Source: Solimonas sp. SE-A11
Lineage (GTDB): Bacteria; Pseudomonadota; Gammaproteobacteria; Nevskiales; Nevskiaceae
Direction: 5' to 3'
NCBI RefSeq assembly: GCF_030345715.1
Contig: NZ_JAUASX010000026.1
Coordinates: 1 to 63,835 of the forward strand
DNA length: 63,835 nt
In this document: positions 44,905 through 63,629 of the stretch, piece after piece
How the letters are laid out: each line of letters opens with the position of its first letter
Numbering within the stretch: position 1 is the stretch's first letter
Notes under the pieces: generated by a model
The model's database searches: none
The model's input: the letters and a program-made list of their open reading frames with translations, nothing else
Told to the model about the DNA's origin: nothing
Program-made: the position numbers and the translations under genes

Positions 44905-44936
44905 GGCTGCATTGCCGATGTAATGGCAATGCAGCC
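44905..44936 (+). other. 12-bp perfect stem-loop containing a start codon
   Basis: GGCTGCATTGCC (44905-44916), loop GATGTAAT, GGCAATGCAGCC (44925-44936). The ATG at 44923 and the alternative ATG at 44929 of the GGDEF-EAL gene fall in the loop end and the 3' arm. There is no U-tract. The hairpin could end the Q-like transcript or hide the start of translation. Confidence 0.7.
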
Positions 44937-48084: not shown

Positions 48085-48092
48085 ATGCGTCC

Positions 48093-48983: not shown

Positions 48984-49106
48984 GGCTGACTCCAGCGCGA
49001 GCACTAACAGGTCGCACAGTACCGCCGGGGCAGGACGCCCGGCAGGGCATTGCCGGCCTGCCGCCGTGCATTTCCGGCCAGTAGCCTGAGCAGGACCCCA
49101 GCCGCC

Positions 49107-50123
49107 ATGTCCGCAGAGGCCAGTTTCCAGCATCCCGTCGCCATCGCCCAGGTGATGGTCAACTTCGGCGCGCGTCATGGCGTCGATACCGCCACCTGCC
49201 TGCTCGGCACCGGCATCACCGAGGCCCAGCTGCGCGACGCCGATGCCCTGATCGCGCGTGAGCAGGAGATGCGCCTGGTGGAGAACCTGATCCTGGCGCT
49301 GCCCCAGGTACAGGCGCCGGGCTTCGAGCTGGGCCTGCAGTACAACGTGGCCACCTTCGGCATCTGGGGCTTCGTGATGCGCATCAGCCGCAACCTGCGC
49401 GAGGCTACGCAGAGCGCCCTGCGCTACCTGCCGCTGAGCACCGCCTACTGCCAGCTGGCGCTGTTCTCCGACGAGCGCGAGTTCGGCGTCAGTGCCGACC
49501 CGTCCGGCATACCGCAGCACCTGCGCCAGTTCCTGCTGGAGCGCGACATGGCCACCGCCGTGAACCTGCTGCACGAACTGGGCCTGCGGGGCCTGCACGT
49601 GCAGCGCCTGGAGTTCCAGGGCCGCGCGCCGGCCCATGCCGGGCGCATCCAAGAGCTCTGCGGCATCGCTCCCCGGTATGGCTGTGCGCGCAACGCCCTG
49701 GTGTTGCGGCGCGAGGACGCCGAGACCCTGCTGCCGATGTACGACGCCCACCTGGTGCGCCTGCTCGAGGACCAGTGCCGCGCGCAACTTGAGCGGCGCC
49801 AGGTGGCGGGCGTGACGGGGCAGGTGCGCCGCCTGCTGCTCGGGCCGCTGGGCCTGGTGGCCTCGCTGGAGGATGTGGCGCAGCAGCTGGCCATGGCGCC
49901 ACGCAGCCTGCGCCGCCGCCTGGAGGAGGAGGGCACCAGCTTCCGCGACCTGGTGGAGGCCGAGCGCAAGCAGGTCGCCGTGCAGCTGCTGGAGGGCACC
50001 GAGATGAAGATCGAGGAGATGGCCCTGCAGCTCGGCTATGGTGATACCGCCAGCTTCACGCGAGCCTTCCGCCGCTGGTTCGGCCGCGCACCCGGCGAGT
50101 ACCGCAAGGCGCAGGGGCGCTAG
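49107..50123 (+). CDS. AraC-family regulator (OruR/ArgR-like)
   Basis: A 338-aa regulator with the arabinose-binding-like N-terminal domain of the PF12625 group (FGLQYNVATFGIWGFVMR-type core, about 75-95) and a C-terminal double HTH (SLEDVAQQLAMAPRSLRRRL; IEEMALQLGYGDTASFTRAF; FRRWFGRAPGEYR). Relatives often answer to fatty acids or amino acids, which fits the divergent desaturase 123 nt away. Confidence 0.88.
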   Translation: MSAEASFQHPVAIAQVMVNFGARHGVDTATCLLGTGITEAQLRDADALIAREQEMRLVENLILALPQVQAPGFELGLQYNVATFGIWGFVMRISRNLREATQSALRYLPLSTAYCQLALFSDEREFGVSADPSGIPQHLRQFLLERDMATAVNLLHELGLRGLHVQRLEFQGRAPAHAGRIQELCGIAPRYGCARNALVLRREDAETLLPMYDAHLVRLLEDQCRAQLERRQVAGVTGQVRRLLLGPLGLVASLEDVAQQLAMAPRSLRRRLEEEGTSFRDLVEAERKQVAVQLLEGTEMKIEEMALQLGYGDTASFTRAFRRWFGRAPGEYRKAQGR

Positions 50124-50194
50124 CGGGGTACGCTCCCGGGATTCAGGTACTTGTACGGATGGAGCCCCGGGTCGGGCGGCCCAGACTGCGCCCC

Positions 50195-50809
50195 ATGGAA
50201 GAAAGGCTGTCATACACCCCCCATGGTCCCGTCGAGGACCTGCAGGCCCTGCTATGCGGCACGGCCCTGGTTGCGCTCGGCGTAACGCTCTATGCGGAGA
50301 TCGGCCTGCTGACGGGCGGTACCGCCGGCGCGGCCCTGCTGCTCGACCATGTCACCGGCTGGGGATTCGGGCCGATCTTCTTCGTGTTCAACCTGCCGTT
50401 CCTGGCCCTGGCCAGGGCGCGCATGGGCCGCGGCTTCCTGCTGCGAAGCTTCGCCGCCGTCGCCCTGGTGTCGCTGCTGTCGGCATTCACGCCGCGGGTC
50501 CTGCAGCTATCGTTCATCCAGCCGGCGTATGGCGCCGTCATTGGCGGCGCGCTGATCGGCACCGGCATGCTGATGCTGTTCCGCCACAAGGCCAGCCTCG
50601 GCGGCATCAACCTGCTGGTGCTGTACCTGCAGGAGCGCCATGGCATCCGTGCCGGCAAGGTGCAGATGGCGGTGGACTGCCTCATCGTGCTGCTGGCGGC
50701 ATTCCAGCTTCCGCCGGATCGGGTCGCGCTCTCCATCCTCGGCGCCGTGACCACCAGCTTCATCCTGGTCACCAACCACAAGCAGGGGCGCTACCTCGGC
50801 GTCAGCTGA
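50195..50809 (+). CDS. YitT-family membrane protein
   Basis: A 204-aa protein with six hydrophobic helices and the Gly-rich repeats of YitT (GLLTGGTAGAALLLDHVTGW; GGALIGTGMLMLFRHKASLG; GGINLLVLYLQERHGIRAG). The ATG at 50195 is chosen near the first helix; 50159 is possible. The function of the family is not established. Confidence 0.85.
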   Translation: MEERLSYTPHGPVEDLQALLCGTALVALGVTLYAEIGLLTGGTAGAALLLDHVTGWGFGPIFFVFNLPFLALARARMGRGFLLRSFAAVALVSLLSAFTPRVLQLSFIQPAYGAVIGGALIGTGMLMLFRHKASLGGINLLVLYLQERHGIRAGKVQMAVDCLIVLLAAFQLPPDRVALSILGAVTTSFILVTNHKQGRYLGVS

Positions 50810-50819
50810 GCGTCGCGCC

Positions 50820-51350
50820 TCACTCCTCCCAGACGGGTTCCGGCGGCAGCCCGCGCTCGGCGCGGGCTGCGTCCATCAGCTCCTGGATCAGCGCGGTCTT
50901 GCCGCGCGTGTATGCCTCGCGGTCGAGCCCGAGCCCGGCGAGCTGCAGCTTCAAGGCAGCGTAGCGTGCTGCCGCGTCGGCGTACTGGCGCAGGTGAGCG
51001 GCGAACATCCGCTCCTTCAGCATTGGCCATTGGTCGAAGGGGAACACAGGCAGATGATGCGTCCGCTTGCCGTCGGCACGCTTGCGGACGTAGAACAGAC
51101 GCTGCGCCGCGCCGTAGTCCTCGGGCTCGTAGACGATCTCCTGCAAGCGCACTTGCATGGCCGCGAAACCGGCCAGGTCCCGCGTAGCTGCGCAGATGTC
51201 GATCACCGGCTTGGCCGCAAGGCCGGGGACCGAGGTGCTGCCGGTGTGCTCGATGGCAACGATCCGCTCGCCCATCGCCCGCAGCAGCGCGGTGCTCGCT
51301 CGCGCGTAAGCATCGGGCCAGGCAGGGTCATAGGCGGTGATCCAGATCAT
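50820..51350 (-). CDS. GrpB/UPF0157 family protein
   Basis: A 176-aa protein of the nucleotidyltransferase-like GrpB fold. Visible: YDPAWPDAYARA at the start, IEHTGSTSVPGLAAKPVIDI (the GSTS and D-x-D region), and HHLPVFP. The biochemical role is not settled. The start at 51350 aligns with the usual family N-terminus. Confidence 0.9.
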   Translation of the reverse strand: MIWITAYDPAWPDAYARASTALLRAMGERIVAIEHTGSTSVPGLAAKPVIDICAATRDLAGFAAMQVRLQEIVYEPEDYGAAQRLFYVRKRADGKRTHHLPVFPFDQWPMLKERMFAAHLRQYADAAARYAALKLQLAGLGLDREAYTRGKTALIQELMDAARAERGLPPEPVWEE

Positions 51351-51487
51351 GTAGCGATTCCAGGGCCGATCCGCTGGCGGGCCCAGTCGCATTGACAAGC
51401 CTCGAGCCCAGGCGCAGGATGCGCGCCCTTGAATCAGGTACACCCGTGATCCTTCGCGCCTACAACTCTCGAGGCAACACTCCGGCC

Positions 51488-51618
51488 ATGCGTTCGCATG
51501 TGCTGGGTTTTGCCGTTATTGCGCGCGCTGCTCCGGGTTGTTCGCCCTGACCTTCCAGATCACGGATCTGTAGTCCGAACCAACCCCGGAGCGCGCAAGC
51601 CTCCGGGGTTTTGTCTTT
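51488..51618 (+). promoter_or_regulatory. Candidate attenuator/riboswitch leader of the MFS gene
   Basis: The gap 51351-51646 holds three alternative structures. A hairpin CATGCG-TT-CGCATG is at 51488-51501. A long imperfect stem pairs 51519-51544 with 51576-51598 and encloses CAGATC-ACG-GATCTG (51556-51570). A terminator pairs AACCCCGGA (51582-51590) with TCCGGGGTT (51602-51610) and is followed by TTGTCTTT. The long stem and the terminator compete for 51582-51590, the logic of attenuation. No known riboswitch class is recognised. Confidence 0.5.
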
Positions 51619-51646
51619 GTGCGGTTGTTTTTCCAAGAGCAGTGTC

Positions 51647-52888
51647 ATGGTGACGAACGATGAACAGGAGTTGTTGAGGATACGCCTGCGGCGCAACGTC
51701 AGCTGCGTGGCCGGCCTGGGCTTTTTCCAGGTCTTCCTGGTGATCATCCCGGTGATCGTGCCCTTCCTGGGCGAGCGGGGCCTGAGCCTCAGCGAGGTCC
51801 TGCTGCTGCAGGCCGTGTTTGCGGGCTTCGTGCTGCTGATGGAAGTGCCGTCGGGCTACATCGCCGACGTCTTCGGCCGCGTGCGCTCGCTGCAGGTCGG
51901 CGCACTGTTCATGGCTGCGGGGCATGCCGGCTTCGTGTTCTCGCATGGCTTCCTGCAGCTCTCGATCTGCGAGCTGCTGCTGGCCGTGGGCGTCAGCCTG
52001 GTATCGGGAGCCGATCTCGCGCTGCTGTACGACACGGAGCAGGCCCTGGCCGGCGACAACAGCCATCCCGAGAAGGTCGTGACCCGCATGTTCGCGCTCC
52101 ACACCTCGGGCGAGGCCCTGGCCGGCATCGTCTGCAGCCTGGTGCTGCTGGCCTGGTCGCTGGATGCTGTCGCCTGGGTGCAGGCGCTGGTGGGCGCCCT
52201 GCCGCTGCTGTTCGCACTGGGCCTGCACGAGCCGCCTGGAGAGCGCCTGTCGCGCGATGATCACGCTGGCAACCTGCGCGAGATCGTCGTGCATCTGTGG
52301 GGCAGCAGTCGCGTGCTGCGCTACACCCTGCTGGCGTTGTGCATCTGGAGCCAGGGCTCGTTCTATGCCGTGTGGTTGCTGCAGCCGCATTGGCAGGCGC
52401 AGGGCATCGAGTTGTCGCTGTTCGGCTACCTCTGGGGCGGCCTGGCCCTGGTGGCGGCCCTTGCAGGCCGCGTGGCCCTGGGGCTGGAGCGCCGCTGGGG
52501 AGTTGCCGTGCTGATGACGGTCATCGGCCTGGCGCCGGTGCTGGGCTATCTCGGCCTGGCGGGCCTGGGACTGGCAGGCGGGCTGGCGGTGAGCCTGTTG
52601 TTCTTCATCGCTCGTGGCCTGGGCCTGGTGGTGTTGCGCGACGCCTTCAACCGTCGCGTGCCGGGCCGCTTCCGGGCCACGGCCAACTCGCTGGCGCACC
52701 TGGGCTTCCGCGCTACCTACCTGGCTACGGCTCCTCTGGTGGGCCTTGCGCTGGACGGCTGGGGTCTGCAGTCCACCTTCCTGCTGCTGGCGGGTGCGGG
52801 TCTTCTGCTGTTCGGCTTGCTGCTGGTACCGCTGATCCGGATGGTGCGGGCGGCACAGTTGCAGGTGGCCTCGGCCGCTTGCAACTGA
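51647..52888 (+). CDS. Major facilitator superfamily transporter
   Basis: A 413-aa protein with about 12 hydrophobic helices. The MFS loop motif is seen after helix 2 (GYIADVFGRVRSLQVGAL), with MEVPSGYIAD just before, typical of drug or metabolite efflux members. Gene start ATG 51647 follows AAGAG; a terminator-containing leader precedes it. Substrate unknown. It is the last host-type gene before the first phage late cassette, 23 nt away. Confidence 0.88.
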   Translation: MVTNDEQELLRIRLRRNVSCVAGLGFFQVFLVIIPVIVPFLGERGLSLSEVLLLQAVFAGFVLLMEVPSGYIADVFGRVRSLQVGALFMAAGHAGFVFSHGFLQLSICELLLAVGVSLVSGADLALLYDTEQALAGDNSHPEKVVTRMFALHTSGEALAGIVCSLVLLAWSLDAVAWVQALVGALPLLFALGLHEPPGERLSRDDHAGNLREIVVHLWGSSRVLRYTLLALCIWSQGSFYAVWLLQPHWQAQGIELSLFGYLWGGLALVAALAGRVALGLERRWGVAVLMTVIGLAPVLGYLGLAGLGLAGGLAVSLLFFIARGLGLVVLRDAFNRRVPGRFRATANSLAHLGFRATYLATAPLVGLALDGWGLQSTFLLLAGAGLLLFGLLLVPLIRMVRAAQLQVASAACN

Positions 52889-52911: not shown

Positions 52912-52959
52912 ACGGAACTCCGTTATGAGTGTGGCCTGCATCGTCGTAAAATAGTCCGC
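52912..52959 (+). promoter_or_regulatory. Late promoter cassette 1: repressor-type operator plus promoter
   Basis: ACGGAACTCCGT (52912-52923) has the same half-sites as the immunity operators. It abuts a weak -35 (TTATGA, 52923-52928) with 18 bp to the -10 TAAAAT (52947-52952). The predicted start is about 52959. Most of the cassette to 53015 is repeated at 61360-61465. Confidence 0.75.
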
Positions 52960-52986
52960 AGAGAGCTCGCGTCCAGAGTTCGACCA

Positions 52987-53066
52987 AGCCCGGCCCCGTG
53001 CCGGGCTTTTTTGTTCCCGACGTCCAGCGCTTTCTTCCAATGCCCGACCCTCGCGTCGGGCTTTTT
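52987..53066 (+). terminator. Tandem promoter-proximal terminators of late cassette 1
   Basis: First: AGCCCGG (52987-52993), CCGGGCT (53001-53007), T6. Second: GCCCGAC (53042-53048), GTCGGGC (53055-53061), T5. Both lie between the promoter and the holin-like gene at 53085, so late expression needs readthrough. Confidence 0.85.
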
Positions 53067-53084
53067 CGTTTCAGGAGATATCCG

Positions 53085-53264
53085 ATGACCGACATGCGTG
53101 GCGATGTGAGTGCGGCGGCGGCCAAATCCGGGCCACCGGTGCTGGCCTTCTTCAGTGGGGTAACCGTTCACGACCTGGTGGGCTGGCTGACGCTGGCCTA
53201 TCTCGGGCTGCAGGCCGTCCACTTGCTATGGAAATGGCGGCGCGAGCTGCGGAGCGGAGCATGA
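53085..53264 (+). CDS. Holin-like small membrane protein
   Basis: A 59-aa protein with one strong hydrophobic helix (LVGWLTLAYLGLQAVHLLW) and a basic end (KWRRELRSG). AGGAGAT precedes the ATG. It directly precedes, and overlaps by 4 nt, the endolysin gene, the standard place of a holin or pinholin. Confidence 0.65.
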   Translation: MTDMRGDVSAAAAKSGPPVLAFFSGVTVHDLVGWLTLAYLGLQAVHLLWKWRRELRSGA

Positions 53265-53710
53265 AGGCGCGGCTGGCGGTCGCGGGCCTGCTCGGCTGCT
53301 TCGTGCTGGTGGCAGGCTTCGAGGGCCTGCGCACGACGGCGTACCGTGATCCGGTGGGCATCCCCACGATCTGTTACGGCAGCACGGCGGGCGTACGCGT
53401 CGGCGATGTTGCCACGCGCGCGCAATGCGAGGCCTTGCTGTGGCATGAACTGCTGGCGGCGCACGACGCCATGATGGCCTGCGTGCGCGTGCCGCTCACG
53501 CCGGGGCAGCGCGGGGCCTTCACGTCCTTCACGTTCAACGTGGGAGCAGGGGCCTTCTGCCGCTCCACGCTCGCGCGTCGCCTCAATGCCCGCGACTACG
53601 CCGGCGCCTGCGCGGAGTTGAGCCGCTGGGTTCATGCGCGCGGCATTCGCCTGCCGGGCCTGGAGCGGCGCCGGGCCGCGGAGAGGGCGCTGTGCGAGCG
53701 CCCGTCATGA
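53261..53710 (+). CDS. SAR endolysin (T4-type lysozyme, GH24)
   Basis: A 149-aa muramidase with an N-terminal signal-anchor-release helix (MKARLAVAGLLGCFVLVAGF). The catalytic triad is present with classic spacing: Glu in GFEGLRT, Asp 9 residues on in YRDPVG, Thr 6 further in PTICYG. The protein is first tethered in the membrane and released to degrade peptidoglycan at lysis. Gene ends overlap on both sides (ATGA), as in lysis cassettes. Confidence 0.92.
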   Translation: MKARLAVAGLLGCFVLVAGFEGLRTTAYRDPVGIPTICYGSTAGVRVGDVATRAQCEALLWHELLAAHDAMMACVRVPLTPGQRGAFTSFTFNVGAGAFCRSTLARRLNARDYAGACAELSRWVHARGIRLPGLERRRAAERALCERPS

Positions 53711-54264
53711 GCCGCCTGTATCTCGGGCTGTGGCTGCTGGCGCTGCTGTTGGGTCTTCTGGCAGGCGTGTTCATCGGCTGGCATCTGCATCCGGCGCCAC
53801 GCGTCGTCGTCGAGGACCTGCGCCCTGTCGCTGCCCAGCGCCAATCCGACGGCAGTCTCATCGCCGCGCGGTCAGCCGCTCCGGCCACGCCCCTTGAACC
53901 GCCGCATGCGCTGCCCCGCGGCAGCCGCGAGGAGCGCCGCATCGCCGTCACCGTGCAGCCCCGGCGAGAGGATTGTCCGCCGATATCGCTGGACCTGTCG
54001 CTGCTGCAACTCGACGGCGGCCGGCGCGTGCTGGCCAGTTCTCCCGACGGCGAGGTGATCCAGGCGCTGGATTTGCCGCTGGAGGCGACCTTGGTGCCGC
54101 CGCCCAAGCGCGGCTGGGCCGCTGGGGCCAGCCTGGATCAATACGCCGGGCAACCCGGCCTGTGGCTGGAGCGTGATCTCGGCCGCTTCCGCGTGGGCGC
54201 CGATCTGGTCATGGACGAGGGCGGTGCGCTGCAGGGCCGCGCGCGCCTGGGCTGGACGTTCTGA
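53707..54264 (+). CDS. Membrane-anchored phage protein in spanin position
   Basis: A 185-aa protein with an N-terminal transmembrane helix (LYLGLWLLALLLGLLAGVFI) and a periplasmic part that ends in beta-like strands (DLGRFRVGADLVMDEGGALQ). It overlaps the endolysin stop. The location fits an Rz-type spanin, but no coiled coil is seen, so the role is uncertain. Confidence 0.7.
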   Translation: MSRLYLGLWLLALLLGLLAGVFIGWHLHPAPRVVVEDLRPVAAQRQSDGSLIAARSAAPATPLEPPHALPRGSREERRIAVTVQPRREDCPPISLDLSLLQLDGGRRVLASSPDGEVIQALDLPLEATLVPPPKRGWAAGASLDQYAGQPGLWLERDLGRFRVGADLVMDEGGALQGRARLGWTF

Positions 54265-54279
54265 ACAAGGAATCAAGAC

Positions 54280-54696
54280 ATGAAAAGCAAGAAAGCCTCG
54301 GCATGGGCCGCGCAGCACATGGGGCGCGACGAGGTGCTGGCGCACCTGGCGCGCGCCGCGCGCTTCGACGTGCGCCGCCTCTTCGACGCCGCCGGCAATC
54401 TCAAGCCGCCGCAGGACTGGGACGACGATACCGCCGCCGCCATCGCTGGCCTGGACTTCCAGGACCAGCGCGGCGTCAAGCGCAAGGACGAGCACGACGA
54501 AGGCGCTACCGAAACCAAGCAGGTGCGCAGCCTGCACACCATCGACCGCCTCAAGGCGTTGGAACTGCTGGGCAAGGCCCACGGCGTGTTCGACGCCTCC
54601 GAGGCCGAGGAGACGGCGGGCGAGGGCAGCCTGGCGCAGTTGCTGGCCCAGGCCTCGGAGCAGAACGGAGGCCTGAATGGACTCGTGCGCCGCTGA
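54280..54696 (+). CDS. Terminase small subunit
   Basis: A 138-aa protein matching small terminases of P22/HK97-like phages: AARFDVRRLFDAAGNLKPPQ and DDDTAAAIAGLDF, then TIDRLKALELLGKAHGVFDA. It recognises packaging sites. Its 3' end overlaps terL by 20 nt. Confidence 0.85.
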   Translation: MKSKKASAWAAQHMGRDEVLAHLARAARFDVRRLFDAAGNLKPPQDWDDDTAAAIAGLDFQDQRGVKRKDEHDEGATETKQVRSLHTIDRLKALELLGKAHGVFDASEAEETAGEGSLAQLLAQASEQNGGLNGLVRR

Positions 54697-56173
54697 GGGC
54701 TCGCCGCTGGCCGACCGCGCCTGGCGCTTGGGCAACCTGTACTGGATCAAGGACAAGGAGGGCCGGCGCATCCGCTTCACGCCCAACTGGGCGCAGCAGC
54801 GCGCCTATGACCGGCTGGCGCACAACAACATCGAGCTCAAGGTGCGCCAGCTCGGCATCACCACCGGCTACTGCATGCTGTGGCTCGACACCTGCCTGTT
54901 CAACCGAGACGTATCGGTGGGTGTGATCGCCCACACCAAGGAGGACGCCAAGGTCATCTTCCGCGACAAGATCAAGTTCGCCTACGACAACCTGCCGCCC
55001 GAGCTGCGCGCCGCCGTGCCCGCGGTCAAGGAGACCGAAAGCGAAATGATCTTCGCCAATGGCTCCAGCATCCGCGTGGGCCTGACCTTCCGCTCAGGCA
55101 CCGTGCAGGTGCTGCACGTCACCGAATACGGCTACATCTGCGCCCATTACCCGCGCCGCGCGCAGGAGATCCGCACCGGCGCCTTCGAGGCCGTGCCCAA
55201 GGGCGGCATCAAGGTGATCGAATCCACCGCCCGCGGTCGCGCCGGGCACTTCTACGAGCTCTGCCGCCAGGCCCAGCAGCGCCGCGCCGACGCGCCGCTG
55301 CTGCACGGAGAGTGGCGCTTCTCCTTCCTGCCCTGGTGGGAGCACCCGGAGTACAGCGTGGAGGAACCGGCCTTCGTCTTCACCGAGGCCGAACTGCGCT
55401 ACTTCCACGACACCGAGGCCCGCATCGGCCAGGCGCTCACGCGCGGCCAGCGCTGCTGGTACGCGCGCAAATGGCGCGACCAGGGCGACGACGTGCGCTC
55501 CGAGTATCCCTCCACGCCCGAGGAAGCCTTCCAGCAGAGCACGGAGGGCGCCTACTACGGCACGCCGCTGCTGGAGGCCTACCGCACCGGCCGCGTCGGC
55601 GAGGTGCCCTACGACCGCGGCCTGCAGGTGGAGACCTGGTGGGACCTGGGCGTGGACGACAGCACCGCCATCTGGTTCCTGCAGCGCCAGGGCCTGCAGT
55701 TGCGCGTGGTGGACTACTACGAGAACAGCGGCGAGGGCCTGGCGCACTACCGCGGCGTGCTGAAGCAGCGTGCCAAACAGCACGGCATCGTCTACAGCCG
55801 CCACGTGGGCCCGCACGATCTCAAGGTGCGCGAGCTCGGCAACGACGCCAAGAGCCGCCTGCAGGCCGCCGCCGAGCTGGGCATGCGCTTCGACGTGGCG
55901 CCGCAACTGAAGGTGGCTGACGGCATCGAGGCCGTGCGCCGCCTGCTGCCGCAGTGCTGGTTTGACGAAAGCCGCACCGCCGAGGGCCGCAAGGCCCTGG
56001 AGCACTACCGCAAGGAATGGGACGCCGTGCGCGGCTGCTGGAAGGACCAGCCCCTGCACGACTGGTCCTCCCACGCCGCGGATGCCCTCCGCACCGGCGC
56101 GGTGGCCGGCGATTCACGTGCCGATACGCGCAACACCAAGGCCCGTGAAGTCCAGCCCGCGCGCTGGCGCTGA
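54677..56173 (+). CDS. Terminase large subunit
   Basis: A 498-aa packaging motor. An adenine/Walker A-like region has VRQLGITTGYCM (about 55-65). Walker B ends as VLHVTEYGY (about 145-153). Coupling motif VIESTARGRAG follows. The C-terminal RNase H-like nuclease has WWDLGVDDSTAIW (about 320) and WSSHAADALR (about 465). All core motifs are kept, so it could be active. The 150-nt gap behind it holds a REP element. Confidence 0.92.
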   Translation: MDSCAAEGSPLADRAWRLGNLYWIKDKEGRRIRFTPNWAQQRAYDRLAHNNIELKVRQLGITTGYCMLWLDTCLFNRDVSVGVIAHTKEDAKVIFRDKIKFAYDNLPPELRAAVPAVKETESEMIFANGSSIRVGLTFRSGTVQVLHVTEYGYICAHYPRRAQEIRTGAFEAVPKGGIKVIESTARGRAGHFYELCRQAQQRRADAPLLHGEWRFSFLPWWEHPEYSVEEPAFVFTEAELRYFHDTEARIGQALTRGQRCWYARKWRDQGDDVRSEYPSTPEEAFQQSTEGAYYGTPLLEAYRTGRVGEVPYDRGLQVETWWDLGVDDSTAIWFLQRQGLQLRVVDYYENSGEGLAHYRGVLKQRAKQHGIVYSRHVGPHDLKVRELGNDAKSRLQAAAELGMRFDVAPQLKVADGIEAVRRLLPQCWFDESRTAEGRKALEHYRKEWDAVRGCWKDQPLHDWSSHAADALRTGAVAGDSRADTRNTKAREVQPARWR

Positions 56174-56208
56174 TTCTTGGACCCCCGCTTCCCCGCGGTC
56201 ACTACGAT

Positions 56209-56241
56209 CCGTTCGCCCTGAGCCTGTCGAAGGGTGAGCGG
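56209..56241. repeat. REP-like element between terL and portal
   Basis: CCGTTCGCCCTGAGCCTGTC then GAAGGGTGAGCGG, an imperfect palindrome of the same family as 20328-20360. Confidence 0.8.
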
Positions 56242-56323
56242 ATTACCCACCGTACCCCCAACGCTTCCGCCCACCCTTCGATCTGCAGGGCGAGCGGAGC
56301 GGTCACCAACTTCCGGAAACCCC

Positions 56324-58276
56324 ATGCCCAGCCTCGGCCTGCTTCACCTGCAAACCCCCGACCAACTCACCGGCAAGTCCCAGCCCCCGCCGCCGTCCGC
56401 GCCACGTGCGCCCTCGCAACTCGTCGGCCACATCCAGTCCGCCTGGCAGCGCAACAAGCGCGCCCGCGAGCAGATCGACCGCCGCCTGCTCAACTGCCTG
56501 CGCCGCCGCAAGGGCGTGTACGCCGAGAGCGACGTGCGCGAGTTCCAGGAACAGGGCTGCGCCACCAGCCTGTTCATGCCGCTGTCCGCCACCAAGTGCC
56601 GCGCCGCGGCCGCCTGGATCCGCGACATCCTCATGCCCGCCTCCGACCGCGCCTGGGCGCTGGAGCCCACCACGCTGCCGGATCTGCCGCAGCCGCAGCG
56701 CCTGCAGTTGCTGCTGCGCGCCGCGCGCCAGGCGCGGCAGCAGATGATCGCCGCCGGCCAGCCGCAGGACCCGCAGCAGTTCCGTGAGCAGGTGGCGCAG
56801 CAGGCGGGTGATCTGGAAACCCGCCTGCGCCAGGACCTGCGCAAGGAAGCGGAGCGCCGCGCCTCGCGCATGTCCGACCGTATCGCCGACCTGATGGACG
56901 AGGGCGGCTACGACGCCGCGCTGGACGAGTTCATCGAGGACTTCTCCACCTATCCCGCCGCCATCCTCAAGGGCCCCTACACCCGCCGCCAGCGTCGCCT
57001 GCAGTGGCTGGGCGGCGCCACGCCCGCCGTGAGCGAGGGCAGCGGCCTGGCCTGGAAGCGCATCAGCCCCTTCGACTGCTACCCCGCCCCGCATGCGCGC
57101 AGCCCGCAGGAGCGCGACTTCATCGAGCGCCTGCGCCTGACCGAATCCGAGCTCTACGCCATGATCGGCGTGCCCGGAAACTCCGAGTGGGACATCCGCC
57201 AGGTGCTGCAGGGCACGCGTGGTGGCAGCCTGCGCCACTGGCTCTGGACCGACGCCGAGCGCAACCGCCTGGAAGGCGACAGCAGCTATGACTGGCTGAC
57301 GCGCGAAGACCTGATCGACGGCCTGCACTACTGGGGCGCGGTGCCCGGCCGCTTGCTGCTGGAGTGGAGATACGAGGCCGCCGAGATCGACGACCCGGAC
57401 CGCCCCTACGAGATCGACGCCATCCTGGTCGGCAGCCACCTGATCCGCTGCGTCGTCAACGACGACCCGCTGGGCCAGCGGCCGTACCACAAGGCCTGCT
57501 ACGAGGCGATCCCCGGCGCCTTCTGGGGCCGCGCCATCCCCGAGATGTGCGAGCCGCACGAAGACCTCTGCAACGCCTCCGCCCGCGCCCTGGTCAGCAA
57601 CCTCGGCATCGCCAGCGGCCCGCAGGTCTACATGGAGGTGGACCGCCTCGCCGACGGCGAGGCCATCACCCAGATGCACCCCTGGAAGATCTGGCAGTTC
57701 AAGAGTGACCCCAACGCCGCGCAGCGCGCGCCCATCGGCTTCTTCCAGCCTGGCAGCAACGCGCAGGAGCTACTGGCCGTGTTCGAGAACTTCGAGCGCC
57801 GCGCCGATGACGCCACCGGCATCCCGCGCTATGCCTACGGCAACGACCGCGTCGGCGGCGCAGGGGAGACTGCTTCGGGCCTTTCAATGCTGCTCAACGC
57901 CGCCGCCAAGGGCCTGCGCCGCGGCATCGCCAACATCGACACCCAGGTGATCTCGCGCACCGTGCAGCAGGCCTTCACCTGGGTGATGCTCTACGTGGAC
58001 GAGCCCGCCCTCAAGGGCGACTGCGCCGTGGTGCCACGCGGCACCGCCGCCCTGCTGATCAAGGACCAGGCCCAGCAGCGCCGCCAGCAGGCCCTGGCCG
58101 CCACCGCCAACCCCGTGGACCTCGGCATCATCGGCCAACGCGGCCGCGCCGCCCTGCTGCGCCAGTACTTCGAGGGTCTGGAGTTGCGCGTGGACGACAT
58201 CATGCCGAGCGAGGAGGAGCTGGCGGCGCGGGAGCAGATGACAGAAAGCCCCTCTCCCCTCGTGGGAGAGGGGTGA
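56324..58276 (+). CDS. Phage portal protein
   Basis: A 650-aa portal ring protein. The order of features fits the portal of podovirus/P22-type phages: QSAWQRNKRAREQIDRRLLN, SDRIADLMDEGGYDAALDEF, WKRISPFDCYPAPHARSPQE, ARALVSNLGIASGPQVYMEV, ASGLSMLLNAAAKGLRRGI. The last residues (SPSPLVGEG) are encoded by a dispersed CTCTCCC hairpin repeat, so the native C-terminus was altered. The ATG at 56324 is chosen as nearest to the conserved part. Confidence 0.88.
   Translation: MPSLGLLHLQTPDQLTGKSQPPPPSAPRAPSQLVGHIQSAWQRNKRAREQIDRRLLNCLRRRKGVYAESDVREFQEQGCATSLFMPLSATKCRAAAAWIRDILMPASDRAWALEPTTLPDLPQPQRLQLLLRAARQARQQMIAAGQPQDPQQFREQVAQQAGDLETRLRQDLRKEAERRASRMSDRIADLMDEGGYDAALDEFIEDFSTYPAAILKGPYTRRQRRLQWLGGATPAVSEGSGLAWKRISPFDCYPAPHARSPQERDFIERLRLTESELYAMIGVPGNSEWDIRQVLQGTRGGSLRHWLWTDAERNRLEGDSSYDWLTREDLIDGLHYWGAVPGRLLLEWRYEAAEIDDPDRPYEIDAILVGSHLIRCVVNDDPLGQRPYHKACYEAIPGAFWGRAIPEMCEPHEDLCNASARALVSNLGIASGPQVYMEVDRLADGEAITQMHPWKIWQFKSDPNAAQRAPIGFFQPGSNAQELLAVFENFERRADDATGIPRYAYGNDRVGGAGETASGLSMLLNAAAKGLRRGIANIDTQVISRTVQQAFTWVMLYVDEPALKGDCAVVPRGTAALLIKDQAQQRRQQALAATANPVDLGIIGQRGRAALLRQYFEGLELRVDDIMPSEEELAAREQMTESPSPLVGEG
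58249..58273. repeat. CTCTCCC/GGGAGAG hairpin repeat inside the portal end
   Basis: CCCCTCTCCC (58249-58258) and GGGAGAGGGG (58264-58273) pair perfectly. A second copy is at 63638-63663. It encodes the portal's last codons and forms a hairpin before the following gap. Confidence 0.8.
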
Positions 58277-58411
58277 TTTGCCGCGCTTGGGCGATGCCCG
58301 AATGGCATCGCCTGCGGCAGATCACGGGCGGCCACGGATGGCCGCCCCGGAGGCCTATTCAAGTAGCTGCAGCCTCGCCATGGATGGCTCCCCCTGAACT
58401 CCCGACCTCTC

Positions 58412-58444
58412 CCGTTCGTGCTGAGCCTGTCGAAGCATGAACGG
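58412..58444. repeat. REP-like element after the portal gene
   Basis: CCGTTCGTGCTGAGCCTGTC then GAAGCATGAACGG. The 200-nt gap 58277-58477 also holds palindromes with GGCCACGGATGGCC and GCCATGGATGGC, like those at 20.4 kb. No gene is visible in it. Confidence 0.8.
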
Positions 58445-58477
58445 TCGTCAACCAAGCTCCTCCCTCCCAAAGACCCC

Positions 58478-58711
58478 ATGCAAACTCTGGATCCACGCCT
58501 CAGCTCCGCCCTGCTGCGCCTGCAGGCCAACCCCGACTACCAGCTCTACCGCGACTGGCTCACCGCCTCGCTCACCCAGGCCGACGAAGCCAACCGCCGC
58601 CTCGACGGCCCCGCGCTGCACCGCTCGCAGGGCCGCGCGCTGGCACTGGAAGAACTCATCAAGGCCCCGCAGACCGCGCAGCAGGCCCTGGCGCGCGCGC
58701 AGCGCGGCTAA
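58478..58711 (+). CDS. Small phage structural-operon protein
   Basis: A 77-aa helical protein (SSALLRLQANPDYQLYRDWL; EANRRLDGPALHRSQGRAL). Similar short proteins follow portal genes in P22-like phages. The function is unknown. Confidence 0.65.
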   Translation: MQTLDPRLSSALLRLQANPDYQLYRDWLTASLTQADEANRRLDGPALHRSQGRALALEELIKAPQTAQQALARAQRG

Positions 58712-58734
58712 CCCACTCATTCTTCGAGAACCCG

Positions 58735-59607
58735 ATGCCACTGAAACACCCTAACCCGGCGGAACTACCGCCAGGCTTCGTGCTGGACCCGCCACCCTTG
58801 TCGCCACCACACCGCAACGCTGCCCCGCAGCGGCGAGCGCTGATGGGACCAGACTATGGCCAGAATTTCCTGCGGCAGAGCCTCGGAGGATCGCTGCCCG
58901 AACAGTGGCGACAGGCCGAGGCTCCGAAGTTAGCGGATCGGATGCGTCAGGCGCGCTCGCTATGGAGTCAGCGGCTGGCAATCGAACGTGAACGCGACTT
59001 GGCCGAGATTGAGTCGGCATACATGAAGCCGGAAGAAGCGCCACTCAGCCTGCGACCGATTATTCCCAGGAGTTCCCGAACGCGAAATCGCAGGTTGGCA
59101 GATGTCAGGGAAAAACTGGATCAGCAGAGAGACTTGATTGCCAAGGAAGCGCTGAATCTGTCAATTTCGCCACAGAATGATTTTGAGCGAAAGTATTTTG
59201 CGGCATCTGGACTGCGTGAAAAGGCTACGGCGATCGCCGCTGATCCTGCAGGAGCCATTGGAGCTTTGTCGCCAAGCCTGATGGCGGCGACTCCGGAAAT
59301 GGCCCTGCAACTAACGCTAGCGCGCAGAGGGCGGAGCATCGACAAGGGCGTTGCGGCAGTTTCTGGTATCGGATTCGGCACCAAGTCGGCGTACGACCAG
59401 GAATATGCGGCTGAACTGATTCGTTCTTTGGCCCGCCAAGGGGTCGATGTTCGGAACAAGCATTCTCTGCAGAGAGCAATGAGCGATGCGGGGGTGATGG
59501 CGACTGCGCGCAGCGAAGCGCGCAGAAAGGCATCCATCGTGGCGGCGGGAGGAGGACTTAGCGGCGCACTGGGTACGCGAATAGGCCATAGAAAGTGTCA
59601 GCAATGA
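58735..59607 (+). CDS. Truncated phage ejection/internal-virion-type protein
   Basis: A 290-aa protein. A Pro-rich start (LPPGFVLDPPPLSPPH) is followed by an Arg-rich middle and a helical part (GALSPSLMAATPEMALQLTL; YDQEYAAELIRSLARQGVDV) that resembles large DNA-ejection or internal proteins of podoviruses, which are usually much longer. It ends in a short unrelated tail at the border of lower-GC DNA, so I regard it as a truncated copy. Confidence 0.6.
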   Translation: MPLKHPNPAELPPGFVLDPPPLSPPHRNAAPQRRALMGPDYGQNFLRQSLGGSLPEQWRQAEAPKLADRMRQARSLWSQRLAIERERDLAEIESAYMKPEEAPLSLRPIIPRSSRTRNRRLADVREKLDQQRDLIAKEALNLSISPQNDFERKYFAASGLREKATAIAADPAGAIGALSPSLMAATPEMALQLTLARRGRSIDKGVAAVSGIGFGTKSAYDQEYAAELIRSLARQGVDVRNKHSLQRAMSDAGVMATARSEARRKASIVAAGGGLSGALGTRIGHRKCQQ

Positions 59608-59794
59608 CACATCTCTGATCTTGGGAACGGACGGGTTCGGAAATACTTGGGCTGGAAAGATTCTTCCTGATGGAACACAGGTCTGGGTTCAGATGCGAGA
59701 TGGAAAGATAACCAACGCGGGGAGAAATATTGCGCCGCGAGAGTACAATCCAGTAACGGGATTGGCTGCCTCAGAAAGACCAGTGTGGAAATAA
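59585..59794 (+). pseudogene. C-terminal tail of a polymorphic toxin, out of frame with the ejection gene
   Basis: From 59585, in the +1 frame relative to the preceding gene: SVSNDTSLILGTDGFGNTWA, then LPDGTQVWVQMRDGKITNAG and APREYNPVTGL, stop TAA 59792-59794. I recall DGTQVWVQ-x-R-x-GKI-NGG and YNPxTGL patterns as a common end of secreted polymorphic-toxin domains (CdiA/Rhs-type CTs). It has no start of its own. The stop overlaps the ATG of the next gene, as toxin and immunity genes do. Confidence 0.6.
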
Positions 59795-60003
59795 TGAACG
59801 ATCAGGTAATGCTGTCTAGGAAGGAAGCCTACAAGGCGATGTTTCTGTTTCTGGAACGGGAGTATCAGTTAACGAAGTCGGACGATATCGGCTCCTTGTT
59901 GGGATCTATGCAGTTCTTAGGCGATGGGGTTCCCGCTGATCCGGCGGCTTGGGAGGATTGGGAAGAGTGTGTCGGACAGGTTCTGCGGGAAGGAGGTTCA
60001 TAG
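59794..60003 (+). CDS. Probable immunity protein
   Basis: A 69-aa acidic protein (LSRKEAYKAMFLFLEREYQL; TKSDDIGSLLGSMQF; DPAAWEDWEECV). The pattern EAYKAMFxFLExxY-TxSDDIGxLLG with DPAxWxDW is familiar from immunity proteins next to toxin tails. It starts in the last base of the toxin frame (TAATG). It would bind and block the matching nuclease-like toxin. The family name is not certain. Confidence 0.7.
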   Translation: MNDQVMLSRKEAYKAMFLFLEREYQLTKSDDIGSLLGSMQFLGDGVPADPAAWEDWEECVGQVLREGGS

Positions 60004-60029
60004 TCTGGTCAGACAACGGGTAAAGAGAA

Positions 60030-60389
60030 ATGGCCACCAGCGGCTTTCACTTTGGTGAAGGTGTTGTTTTTGTGAGGGACTGAGACATATCCCAGTTCAT
60101 CAGGGCAGTTGCCATCCATTGCGAGGAATACCTGAAGCGCGAAAGCACAGCCGGATGGCTTCTGGATACTTGCCTGGTGTGGATGGACGATTTTGATAGC
60201 TCCGCTCCAGGAGTGCGAGACATGGAGTTGGACGAAGCCTTGGCCGAAGTTCAGCGAAAAACCCTGTTCGCAGATTACTTGCGCTGGTTGAAGAAGCAGG
60301 ATGCGAGTGATGAATACGATCATCAATCCGTTCTGAAAACCATTGATAAGGTTCTGAGGATCATGGGAAATGCCGATTTATTGGAATAA
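60030..60389 (+). pseudogene. Second immunity-like gene with an in-frame stop
   Basis: An ATG at 60030 opens SGFHFGEGVVFVRD, then TGA (60081-60083), and the same frame goes on ISQFIRAVAIHCEEYLKRES, LVWMDDFDSSAPGVRDMELD and YLRWLKKQ to the stop at 60387. Composition is AT-richer than the phage genes. A short product from GTG 60177 (70 aa) remains possible. Confidence 0.6.
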
Positions 60390-60459
60390 ATTCCAGGGCG
60401 AGCTTTACCACGATTGGCATTCTCAACGCCCCTTCAATCGAGTGAGCTAGTGCTCAAAG

Positions 60460-60900
60460 GTGAAAATGAGCAGCATCGAGGCAGCAATCACCTTGGCTTG
60501 CAAAGCGCATAAAGGGCAGATTGACAAAGGTGGTAGTCCCTACATTCTTCATCCTCTGCGCCTGATGCTCCGCATGAGCAGTGCCGCAGAAATGATGGCG
60601 GCTGTTATGCATGACGTGGTGGAAGACGGAGATGTTTCATTGCAGGATCTTCGCGGCCTGGGTTTCCCAGAGTCGGTGGTTAGTGCAGTTGATTGCCTGA
60701 CTCGCCGCAAGTGCGAAGACTACGAGGGCTTCATAAAAAGACTTGCAGCCAATCCTTTAGCGAGGAGGGTGAAGGTGGAAGATCTCAAAGACAACATGGA
60801 TCTGACACGACTAAGCGATGTCACTGACAAAGATCTGAAGCGGCAGGAGAAGTACAAGAAGGCGTTGCAGATTCTCGCCGAGCTTGAGCAGACCGTGTAG
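60460..60900 (+). CDS. Small SpoT-like HD hydrolase (alarmone hydrolase-like)
   Basis: A 146-aa protein with the (p)ppGpp-hydrolase HD fold: AHKGQIDKGGSPYILHPLRL (about 15-35), VMHDVVEDG (the HD and ED pairs, about 50-58) and VEDLKDNMDLTRL (about 107-119). It lacks the synthetase, TGS and ACT domains. Starts: GTG 60460 or ATG 60466. Placed in an immunity-gene cluster, it might hydrolyse an alarmone made by a toxin; this is inference. Confidence 0.85.
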   Translation: MKMSSIEAAITLACKAHKGQIDKGGSPYILHPLRLMLRMSSAAEMMAAVMHDVVEDGDVSLQDLRGLGFPESVVSAVDCLTRRKCEDYEGFIKRLAANPLARRVKVEDLKDNMDLTRLSDVTDKDLKRQEKYKKALQILAELEQTV

Positions 60901-60913
60901 GGCAAGCGCATCA

Positions 60914-61309
60914 ATGTCACACCCCCTGATCATCCCCATGGCCGCCCACGTGGCACTGGCGGCGTTCCTGTACGCGCTCCTCACGGTGGCTCGGGCTCCG
61001 AAGATCTGGGGCATTGGCCAACGTGCCGATGGCAGCAATCCCTGGGCGGCAATGGAACCCCGCATCAGCGCCAACCTGTCCAACCAGTTCGAGTGGCCGC
61101 TGTTCTTCCATGCGGCCTGCCTGATCCTTCTGCGGTCGGAGCCGGCCGGCCTATCGCTGGCCCTGGCCTGGACTTTCATCGCCGGGCGGGTTCTGCACAG
61201 CCTGGTCCAGATACTCACCGGCAACGTCCGGCTGCGGGGCATCGTCTTCACGATCAACTTCCTGGCGGTGCTGGGTCTTTGGGCGATCATCGTCCTGGCG
61301 GCGTTGTAG
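60914..61309 (+). CDS. MAPEG-family membrane protein
   Basis: A 131-aa protein with four helices and MAPEG features: PKIWGIGQRADGSNPWAAME, PRISANLSNQFEWPLFFHAA (with the N-x2-E-x2-P element) and GRVLHSLVQILTGNVRLRG. Bacterial relatives of microsomal glutathione transferases act on hydrophobic electrophiles. It is a host-type gene between phage modules. Confidence 0.88.
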   Translation: MSHPLIIPMAAHVALAAFLYALLTVARAPKIWGIGQRADGSNPWAAMEPRISANLSNQFEWPLFFHAACLILLRSEPAGLSLALAWTFIAGRVLHSLVQILTGNVRLRGIVFTINFLAVLGLWAIIVLAAL

Positions 61310-61359
61310 AGCCCCGGCATCATGCAGGTGCTGCGCACAAGCGCAGCCCATGAAGAAAT

Positions 61360-61407
61360 ACGGAACTCCGTTAGGAGTTCCCAGGACACCCACGTAAAAT
61401 AGTCCCC
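61360..61407 (+). promoter_or_regulatory. Late promoter cassette 2: repressor-type operator plus promoter
   Basis: ACGGAACTCCGT (61360-61371) abuts TTAGGA (-35, 61371-61376) with 18 bp to TAAAAT (-10, 61395-61400); predicted start about 61407. The operator-to--10 distance (23 bp) is identical to cassette 1, and blocks such as CGTAAAATAGTCC and CAGAGAGCT are the same in both. Confidence 0.75.
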
Positions 61408-61437
61408 AGAGAGCTTGCGTCCGCAGCTCGCCCAACC

Positions 61438-61462
61438 AGCCCGGCAATCGCCGGGCTTTTTT
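61438..61462 (+). terminator. Promoter-proximal terminator of late cassette 2
   Basis: AGCCCGG (61438-61444), loop CAATCG, CCGGGCT (61451-61457), T6. It lies about 31-56 nt past the predicted start and 75 nt before the scaffold gene. Confidence 0.85.
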
Positions 61463-61536: not shown

Positions 61537-62511
61537 ATGAGCCGACGTTACCCGAGAAATATCCAGAAGCAGATCGCCGCCGCCAGCGAGCTGGAGGCGC
61601 AACTGGCCCAGCCCGGTCCGGACCCCGCACCGGCACCCGCTCCCGACATGGAGCCGGTGCCAGCGGTGGAGCCCGCGGACGAGCCGGGCGCCGAGGCGGC
61701 ACTGCCGGATCCGGGCCCCGCGCCGGACTACTGGCGCGCGCGTTTCCAGACCACCGAGGGCCTGTTGCGCCGGGAGCGGGAGGATCGCGCGCGTGAGCAG
61801 CAGGGCCAAGTAGCCCAGCTGCAGCAGATGCAGCGGCAGCTGGCGGAACTCCAGGGCCAGCTCGACGCCGGACGCGATCCGGTGGCGGGCCTGGACCTGG
61901 CGCAACACTTCAGCGCCGAGCAGATCGAGCACTACGGCGAGGATCACCTGCGGGCGGTGCTGCGTGCCGCGCAGCGCACGCTGCAGCCGCAGTTGCAGAA
62001 CGCCATGGAGTCCTCGCTGGCGCCGCTGCGCCAGGAGCTGGAGGACACGCGCGAGCGCGTGGCGCAGACGCAGCGCAGCCAGGAGCAGAGGGCCTATGAC
62101 GGCTTCCTGTCGGAGCTGTCGCGGCAGGTGCCGGAATGGGAGCAGGTCAATGCCGACCCGCGCTTCCTGGGCTACCTGGCCGAGAGCGACGAGGCCACCG
62201 GCGAAGAACGCCAGGCCTTGCTCCACCGCTTCGAGCAGCGCCGCGATGCCGGCCGCGTGGCGCGCCTGTTCCGCGATTACCTGCGCCACCACGGCGCCCG
62301 CGCCGGCGTGCGTGATCCGAACAAGCGCCTGCTGCCGGACGGCTCGCCCGACGGTGACAACCCGCCGGACCCGCGCCCGGCCATCAGCCAGGCGCAGATC
62401 CGCCAGTTCCAGGCCGACGTCGCGCGGGGCCGCTACCGCGGCCGCGCGCAGGAGCAGGCGGCGATGCAGCGCCTGATCGACGAGGCCTATATCGGTGGCC
62501 GCATCGGCTGA
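61537..62511 (+). CDS. Phage scaffold-like protein
   Basis: A 324-aa protein with a Pro/Glu-rich low-complexity part (about 30-65), a long coiled coil (about 70-200: QQGQVAQLQQMQRQLAELQG), and a basic C-terminus (ISQAQIRQFQADVARGRYRG). The place directly before the coat gene and this build fit a P22-type scaffolding protein that guides capsid assembly. Confidence 0.8.
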   Translation: MSRRYPRNIQKQIAAASELEAQLAQPGPDPAPAPAPDMEPVPAVEPADEPGAEAALPDPGPAPDYWRARFQTTEGLLRREREDRAREQQGQVAQLQQMQRQLAELQGQLDAGRDPVAGLDLAQHFSAEQIEHYGEDHLRAVLRAAQRTLQPQLQNAMESSLAPLRQELEDTRERVAQTQRSQEQRAYDGFLSELSRQVPEWEQVNADPRFLGYLAESDEATGEERQALLHRFEQRRDAGRVARLFRDYLRHHGARAGVRDPNKRLLPDGSPDGDNPPDPRPAISQAQIRQFQADVARGRYRGRAQEQAAMQRLIDEAYIGGRIG

Positions 62512-62523
62512 TGACGCACCCAT

Positions 62524-62615
62524 CCGTTCGCCCTGAGATTGTCGAAGGCTGAGCGGATACCCGGCCGACCGCCGCAGCGGCCCGTTCGTGCTTCGACAGG
62601 TTCGGCACGAGCGGG
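62524..62615. repeat. Pair of REP-like elements between scaffold and coat genes
   Basis: CCGTTCGCCCTGAGATTGTC then GAAGGCTGAGCGG (62524-62556), and an element with the core in the other orientation, CCGTTCGTGCTTCGACAGGT then TCGGCACGAGCGG (62582-62614). Such inverted pairs are typical of REP or RAYT-mobilised units. Confidence 0.8.
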
Positions 62616-62675
62616 CGACAAGCGGCGGTTGGCCCATCGAGTTTCAAGACCCAACCCACACAAGGACCAACACAC

Positions 62676-63629
62676 ATGGCAAACATGCCGATCTCGGGTA
62701 CCTACCCGAATCTTTCCGCCAACGGCACGGGCACGTCGAAGTACATCCCGACGCTGTTCTCGCAGAAGGCCACCGTCAAGCACTACGACATGACCGTGTG
62801 CGGCGAGATCACCAGCAACGACTGGGAGGGTGAAGTCACCCGCCTGGGCGACAAGGTGATCATCCGCCGCACGCCGGATGTCTCGGTGGGCGACTACCAG
62901 AAGAACCTGGACATCGCCTACGAGACGCCGGAGGACAGCGCCACGGAGCTGGAACTCAACCGCGGCAAGTACTACGCCGTGGTGCTGGACGACGTGGACC
63001 GCATCCAGAGCGACATGGCCCTGATGGACATGTACGCCGAGGACGCCGCCGAGCAGGTGGTGCTCAAGCAGGACGCGGAGTTCCTCTCCGACATCATCCT
63101 GGACATCCACGCCGACAACCAGGGCGCCAACGCCGGCAAGAAGTCCGGCGCCATCGACCTGGGCGCCGTGGGCGCCCCGGTGGTGATCGACGCGGACAAC
63201 GCCATCCGCTTCCTGATGCGCATGAACCAGGCCCTGACCGAGCAGGGCGTCTCCAAGGTTGGCCGCTGGGTGGTGCTGCCGGCCTGGTTCTGCACCATCC
63301 TGAAGAACACCGACGTGAAGTCGGCGCTCATCACCGGCGACGCCGAGGGCACGCTGCGCAACGGCCGCCTGGGCACCATCGACGGCCTGATGCTGTACGA
63401 GTCCAACCAACTGGCCGATTACACCGACGCCGCGCTGAACGTGACCCCGATCGTCGCCGGCCACAAGGACGGCGTGACTTGGGCCAACCAGTTCATCAAC
63501 GCCGAGGTGATCCGCCTGCAGACCAAGTTCGCCTCCGCCATCCGCGGCCTGGCGGTCTATGGCTACAAGGTGGTGGAGCCGCGCTACCTGGCCCTGGGCC
63601 GCGTCACGCCGGACCTGTCGGCGCTGTAA
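62676..63629 (+). CDS. Major capsid protein (P22 coat-like)
   Basis: A 317-aa coat protein. Typical segments are VTRLGDKVIIRRTPDVSVGD, YYAVVLDDVDRIQSDMALMD, VGRWVVLPAWFCTILKNTDV and AIRGLAVYGYKVVEPRYLAL. It would form the HK97-fold shell. The frame is complete, with ACACAC and a weak Shine-Dalgarno upstream. Confidence 0.9.
   Translation: MANMPISGTYPNLSANGTGTSKYIPTLFSQKATVKHYDMTVCGEITSNDWEGEVTRLGDKVIIRRTPDVSVGDYQKNLDIAYETPEDSATELELNRGKYYAVVLDDVDRIQSDMALMDMYAEDAAEQVVLKQDAEFLSDIILDIHADNQGANAGKKSGAIDLGAVGAPVVIDADNAIRFLMRMNQALTEQGVSKVGRWVVLPAWFCTILKNTDVKSALITGDAEGTLRNGRLGTIDGLMLYESNQLADYTDAALNVTPIVAGHKDGVTWANQFINAEVIRLQTKFASAIRGLAVYGYKVVEPRYLALGRVTPDLSAL

Follow-up and report, generated by a model that had tools for sequence, protein, structure and literature searches.

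A promoter family with an operator-like palindrome in the genus Solimonas and its terminator-led copies before late phage genes

The contig NZ_JAUASX010000026.1 of Solimonas sp. SE-A11 (63,835 nucleotides, called the window below) carries two repeated cassettes, each consisting of an operator-like palindrome, a promoter, a conserved leader and an intrinsic terminator, and each standing ahead of late phage genes. The promoter of these cassettes belongs to a family of the whole genus and not to the two late operons, and the terminator is the part of the unit that is specific to late genes. The explanation that we put forward, tentatively, is that the cassettes are the starts of late units of a domesticated phage element, in which the family promoter is combined with a leader and a phage-specific terminator, a regulator would occupy a site centred at -41.5, and readthrough would depend on a Q-like protein. 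The genome to which this contig belongs measures 4.94 Mb (G000), the window covers the contig in full, and comparisons were made within a set of 117 genomes that includes four of the Solimonas group (G000 to G003).

Architecture of the late cassettes

In both cassettes the 12-mer ACGGAACTCCGT (52912-52923 and 61360-61371) is separated by exactly 23 bp from the element TAAAAT (52947-52952 and 61395-61400), and the centre of the palindrome falls at about -41.5 relative to the predicted transcription start. A leader common to the two, beginning near AGAGAGCTYGCGTCC, then leads into an intrinsic terminator, with hairpins at 52986-53008 and 61438-61457 and T-runs ending at 53012 and 61462; the folding z-scores of the leader-terminator RNAs against shuffles are -3.45 and -3.85. 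When up to two mismatches are allowed, the 12-mer has 15 matches in the window, a number reached by none of 100 shuffles (chance mean 3.37). A promoter followed by a short leader and an intrinsic terminator, immediately ahead of late genes, is the arrangement of a Q-dependent late promoter. The parts of the cassettes and the genes downstream are as follows.

52912-52923, forward strand: operator-like palindrome of cassette 1, centre at about -41.5
52923-52928, forward strand: TTATGA, a conserved non-consensus -35-like element (52 of the 53 dispersed promoters have TTA[GT]G, whose A the search pattern prescribed)
52947-52952, forward strand: -10 element TAAAAT of cassette 1
52960-52985, forward strand: conserved leader of cassette 1, with a predicted hairpin at 52963-52981
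52986-53012, forward strand: intrinsic terminator of cassette 1
53042-53066, forward strand: second hairpin and T-run of cassette 1, ahead of the holin gene (read from the sequence by eye)
53085-54264, forward strand: holin-like gene, phage lysozyme and one more small gene, called Rz-like from its position alone, downstream of cassette 1
54280-58276, forward strand: terminase small subunit, terminase large subunit and portal, downstream of cassette 1
61360-61371, forward strand: operator-like palindrome of cassette 2, centre at about -41.5
61395-61400, forward strand: -10 element TAAAAT of cassette 2
61408-61437, forward strand: conserved leader of cassette 2, with a predicted hairpin at 61411-61429
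61438-61462, forward strand: intrinsic terminator of cassette 2
61537-63629, forward strand: scaffold-like protein (by position) and major capsid protein, downstream of cassette 2

The first-pass annotation of this DNA, made from the letters of the window, is thus borne out as to the two cassettes themselves, with their identical spacing, leader and terminator, and as to their place before blocks of late genes; these are lysis, terminase and portal genes for cassette 1 and scaffold-like and capsid genes for cassette 2. The same unit precedes the lysis genes and the scaffold-capsid genes in all four Solimonas-group genomes, with matching downstream flanks in each.

A promoter family of the genus

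The promoter pattern used for the comparison of genomes fixed both the 23-bp spacing and the A of TTA, and is for this reason not used alone as evidence for the constancy of the spacing. Of the 117 genomes, only the four that belong to the genus have matches, at 12, 13, 14 and 18 sites; the other 113 have none. A second pattern, which dropped the spacing rule and fixed TTAKG, found 59 sites in the four genomes (12, 12, 14 and 21) and no site when read backwards. Among these 59, A-N3-T stands at the exact 23-bp place in 53 (one of them the PL promoter of G003), the -10 element lies one base further in five, and one site has no -10 element.

Subtraction of the four PL-like promoters (see below) from the 57 sites of the spaced pattern leaves 53 dispersed promoters. 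Conservation among these is seen in an A-tract upstream and in the palindrome, TTA[GT]G and the -10 element; the spacer letters diverge. TTA[GT]G is kept in 52 of the 53; the conservation of TTA was judged from searches of G000 in which neither the spacing nor TTA was fixed, and that of [GT]G from the comparison of the 53 promoters. The best -35 match to TTGACA has three mismatches in 44 dispersed promoters, four in six and two in three. An operator at -17.5 occurs in none of the 53 (the closest approach has 3 mismatches of 8); the -41.5 site is their only one.

A private device of one prophage was considered and dropped on account of the further copies elsewhere in the genome, and the earlier description of a duplicated late-gene device is not supported as written, since the operator-promoter occurs 12 to 21 times per genome and mostly not before phage genes. 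Specifically, 47 of 58 distinct units are not ahead of genes labelled as phage, and those that were read sit between host genes. Apart from the late units, a cassette with terminator is found upstream of a primosome-type (DUF1376-like) gene in G000, by eye near nuo genes; in G003, too, one precedes a similar gene, at 37% identity. Comparison of the 58 units showed some intergenic places to be occupied in several species, sometimes by a unit that differs in type or orientation. Three near-identical cassettes lie within 3.5 kb in G003 (locus L123; 4003045, 4004289 and 4006527).

A scan of genome contigs, made with a pattern one base too long and so not a measure of distribution, gave six matches, five of which look like chance in unrelated bacteria, the sixth being L128, a variant with 24-bp spacing in G002. 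The promoter scan of viral contigs gave a single match, L150, on a 22-kb IMG/VR contig that is called a virus; its letters are the same as those of the G003 scaffold cassette, and it is not independent.

The immunity region and its operators

Upstream of the late genes, the window contains a lambda-like immunity layout, with divergent genes for a CI protein (helix-turn-helix, HTH, plus S24 domain) and a Cro-like protein and several shared operators between them; the genes are present in four of four genomes.

43289-43300, reverse strand: operator at -17.5 of the PL-like promoter, ACGGCATGCCGT
43313-43324, reverse strand: operator at -41.5 of the PL-like promoter, ACGGAATTCCGT
43427-44089, reverse strand: CI-like repressor with HTH and S24 peptidase-like domain, start inferred from the comparison of the four genomes
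44101-44112, forward strand: operator at -54.5 of PR and -17.5 of PRM, ACGGAATTCCGT
44114-44125, forward strand: weak operator at -41.5 of PR, ACGGAAATCCAT, which G003 does not keep
44138-44149, forward strand: operator at -17.5 of PR (the cro promoter), ACGGAAAACCGT
44161-44364, forward strand: Cro-like HTH protein, with a predicted leaderless mRNA
44436-44897, forward strand: candidate Q-type antiterminator of 153 aa, its gene following cro at 72 bp

A perfect ACGGNNNNCCGT stands at -17.5 in all four PR, all four PRM and all four PL-like promoters of the four genomes. The immunity sites have the same half-sites, ACGG/CCGT, as the cassette 12-mer (one site being imperfect), and do not share its AACT centre. 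The operator of the cassettes had been equated with the immunity sites; this holds for the half-sites, so that each late promoter does contain a CI-type pair, and fails for the four central bases, the 12-mer being identical to no immunity site.

The CI proteins of the other three genomes are 90, 95 and 98% identical to that of the window, with a nearly invariant HTH region. Homologues at least 89% identical are confined to the four genomes that have the promoters, and the best CI relative in the other 113 reaches 44%; in viral contigs no relatives of CI or of the Q-like protein were found. S24 repressors usually cleave themselves at an Ala-Gly pair. At CI residues 97-101 (SGGPG, alignment A3), Gly-Gly occupies this position in all four genomes, which makes cleavage in an SOS response uncertain.

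The small protein encoded at 44436, just after cro, is suitably placed for an antiterminator, and from this position a Q-like role is possible. It matched no family in Pfam or NCBIfam. One PHROG family of unknown function matches four of four members of the 44436 family (best E 5.9e-5), and among PDB sequences there is a weak match to 8tno, UNC_239 (E 0.18). A profile of the four proteins gave no match to AlpA up to E 1 among PDB sequences, which are assumed to include the AlpA structures (PMC9371919).

Terminators mark the phage-gene units

Of 11 phage-gene units, 9 have an intrinsic terminator no further than about 85 nt from the predicted start, as against 1 of 47 others (Fisher p = 5e-8). 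The early terminator of the earlier description is borne out, and it is specific to phage-gene units. The count is over the 58 distinct units. Two units, a late cassette of G003 and L140, an RNA unit of G001, have the same first 70 letters as another unit and were merged with it; the G003 PL-like promoter and L212, the site without a -10 element, are both among the 47 others. The type labels of units come from simple patterns, by which L109, L114 and L135 are labelled A, and L113, L118 and L120 'other'.

Structured RNAs behind the promoter

Many promoter copies drive two families of longer structured RNAs. The first family, of about 180 nt with a strong terminal hairpin, is found at L011, L012, L014, L078, L097, L107, L128, L136, L141, L204, L211 and L213; 11 of these 12 sequences were folded together, giving 52 predicted pairs, nine of which are changed on both sides in at least one sequence, with a small covariation term (-1.67). 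The second family, of about 330 nt by eye, has a T-run after its terminal hairpin and some sequence in common with the first. Its members are listed here.

L009, L010, L095, L098, L100, L101, L108, L109, L133-L135, L137-L140 and L142-L144: second RNA family

A comparison of the units of 12 loci and of the window with Rfam gave no match above a family's cut-off. A match to the TwoAYGGAY RNA family was seen in L012 at 6117-6187, about 350 bp upstream of a family-A unit.

Conservation of the phage element

The genes for CI, Cro, the Q-like protein, terminase, portal, scaffold-like protein and capsid are present in all four genomes with 60-98% identity. Ratios of non-synonymous to synonymous substitution rates (dN/dS) of 0.04-0.63 over nine phage genes indicate purifying selection; lysozyme was not found in G003. 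In each of the four genomes the CI-cro-Q module has the same gene nearby, at no more than about 2 kb, and the late cluster is partly collinear in three. In G003 the module lies about 72 kb from the late cluster. Tyrosine integrases (PF00589), the only integrase type searched, are absent from contigs C19 and C23 of G001 and C56 of G002, and those of G003 occur only at 268, 1428 and 4709 kb, none near the CI-cro-Q module or the late cluster; in G000 the end of the late cluster falls off the contig.

Structural genes under purifying selection in a whole lineage and the absence of a linked tyrosine integrase are features expected of a gene transfer agent (GTA). We read the phage genes as a domesticated element, perhaps GTA-like, that has probably been inherited vertically. 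A related prophage of another genus (L172/L173), which speaks for the mechanism proposed below, has by eye a gene in the Q position; its late genes are headed by a TTGACG-17-CATGAT promoter, a short leader and a terminator, and its portal, scaffold and capsid genes adjoin one another. Because of this prophage, the ancestral plan was probably an ordinary pR'-tR' arrangement.

Host-like genes are found immediately upstream of both cassettes.

44923-52888, strand not assigned: host-like cargo that separates cassette 1 from the Q-like gene (GGDEF/EAL, desaturase, YitT, MFS; names by eye)
60460-61309, forward strand: host-like cargo ahead of cassette 2 (HD domain, below cut-off, and MAPEG)

Orthologues of the GGDEF/EAL and desaturase genes are present in G001 and G002, and those of YitT and MFS in G002 only. 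The cargo at both places varies among species in the units read, and these may be insertion hot spots.

Proposed mechanism and alternative explanations

In the mechanism that we propose, the -41.5 palindrome would most likely be bound by a regulator of the local CI-cro locus, which would help RNA polymerase at a promoter with a poor -35 region rather than silence it. Without an antiterminator, polymerase would stop about 50 nt downstream, and readthrough to the lysis-terminase-portal and scaffold-capsid genes would be brought about by a Q-like protein, for which the 44436 product is a candidate. The sequences themselves show the architecture, the fixed spacing, the family in the whole genus, the tie of terminators to late units and the conservation among four genomes; the binder, the sign of control, the antiterminator and vertical descent are inferred. 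Positive control is narrowly favoured because the -17.5 site is missing and the -41.5 site adjoins a conserved non-consensus -35 region. We considered and gave up the argument that the class II position proves activation: in lambda, OR2 is almost as far from PRM, which is activated, as from PR, which is repressed, and -41.5 falls between the two distances, so that geometry alone does not fix the sign of control.

This behaviour of OR2 is one of several points that weigh against the proposed mechanism. A lysogeny repressor that activated late promoters would make them strongest when late genes are unwanted, which is physiologically odd. The centre of the dispersed sites is AACT/AGTT in 51 of 53 and is seen at no immunity operator, the immunity centre AATT occurring in only 2 of 53, and this difference makes another binder possible. 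As to the antiterminator, the Q-like PHROG families match the 44436 family weakly (E 0.097, two of four members; E 0.48, one of four), and the protein does not align with the Q-position protein of L172. Two phage-gene units, L093 and L124, fail the terminator test, having by eye a hairpin with a poor, broken T-run, and L120, which has no terminator and was counted among the others, lies ahead of a gene with a match to a PHROG family of unknown function; moved to the phage class, L120 changes the counts to 9 of 12 versus 1 of 46. Finally, the synonymous rates (dS) of CI, cro and capsid (0.05-0.34) are mostly below those of two neighbouring host-like genes (0.25-0.62, the G003 paralogue left out), which would allow exchange between species and speaks against strict vertical descent.

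The first-pass annotation had the repressor silence the late promoters directly. In this form, CI at -41.5 would block the -35 region and the terminator would be a second lock opened by an antiterminator, and we regard this as somewhat unlikely, though a serious competitor. It has the simplest physiological logic for a lysogen; the half-sites equal those of the immunity operators, the site abuts the -35 region, and lambda CI at OR2 represses PR from a similar distance. However, the -17.5 position used at PR, PL and PRM is empty in 53 of 53 dispersed promoters, which leaves as sole site one at -41.5, where activators also act, and the -35 region, although it departs widely from consensus, is conserved in this non-consensus form. 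Direct silencing is therefore not supported as it was written. The divergent centre of the dispersed sites would instead be accommodated if the family answered to another regulator with a CI-like site (the Cro-like or Q-like protein, or a host factor) and CI had no role at the cassettes; the conserved asymmetric flanks (A-tract upstream, TTAKG downstream) and the many units away from genes labelled as phage would also fit. We consider this improbable, given that the ACGG/CCGT half-sites are shared with the immunity operators, that the PL-like promoters have a -41.5 site at equal spacing, and that promoters and close CI homologues occur together in the same four genomes.

The number of copies with two structured-RNA families, and the several intergenic spots that hold a unit of other type or orientation in another species, might also suggest mobile or recombining RNA-gene elements that spread with the promoter, two of which would have come to stand before late genes by chance and have no regulatory meaning there. 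This is very hard to reconcile with the matching downstream flanks of both late units in four genomes, and with the terminator that these units have and 46 of 47 other units lack, and we give it little credence. The explanation tentatively preferred here is regulator-assisted initiation at late-unit starts followed by Q-like readthrough.

Comparison with known systems

The control plan had been taken as undescribed; this is not supported, since promoter-terminator pairs under one antiterminator that is itself repressor-controlled have been published for AlpR/AlpA (PMC7969949) and for the Caulobacter GTA (PMC11150451). The lambda pR'-tR' region, where the Q site at pR' has been described (PMC6266700), is alike in its promoter, short leader and intrinsic terminator before late genes and in a candidate regulator gene just after cro. 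The Solimonas units differ from it in their poor -35 region, their operator-like -41.5 site, their repetition at several late units and the lack of demonstrable Q homology.

In Pseudomonas aeruginosa, the two operons under AlpA have predicted intrinsic terminators ahead of their first gene (PMC7969949). This system shares with the one discussed here a repressor, an antiterminator (here a candidate) without sequence homology to lambda Q and two terminator-led operons; in contrast, the AlpA element lies between -10 and -35, and the text available mentions no repressor site in the AlpA target promoters (PMC7969949). The 44436 family also has no sequence match to AlpA, and Solimonas has 12 to 21 promoters per genome.

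In the Caulobacter GTA, activation at promoters with degenerate -35 regions is combined with antitermination under a repressor (RogA, GafY, IHF and GafZ; PMC11150451). The likeness would extend to the repressor-controlled activator and antiterminator, to about 18 accessory promoters and to an activator that helps a degenerate -35 region, whereas GafY depends on IHF and has its binding site at a distance upstream, GafZ acts on a single target, and particle production has been demonstrated there (PMC11150451); the Solimonas element is known from its genes. Mycobacteriophage stoperators (PMC9283540) are likewise repressor-type sites that are widely scattered, but they are asymmetric and stop elongation across the phage genome; the Solimonas sites are palindromic, lie on the host chromosome and have a set position relative to the -10 element that follows them. 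Stoperator-type asymmetry was not found among the 59 sites, which are palindromic and in 58 cases stand 23 or 24 bp upstream of a -10-like element.

Searches of the open literature on late promoters, GTAs and repressor-activator control gave nothing on Solimonas (Solimonas combined with prophage gave work on a mussel symbiont), and no precedent for an operator-carrying, chromosome-wide promoter family was found in the open literature searched.

Implications

It is possible, although we hold it with some reserve, that a phage CI/Cro-type operator has come to switch 12 to 21 promoters per genome together, as one chromosomal regulon throughout the genus. Such a regulon would join a domesticated phage element, which has no tyrosine integrase linked to it and may be a gammaproteobacterial GTA with terminator-locked late units, to two families of structured non-coding RNAs. 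The presence of a -41.5 site without a -17.5 site poses a sharp question about the sign of control. If the promoters do form one regulon, a phage immunity switch would have turned into a chromosomal control network that ties late phage genes at several loci to non-coding RNAs, and Solimonas would offer a gammaproteobacterial parallel to the GTA switch of Caulobacter.

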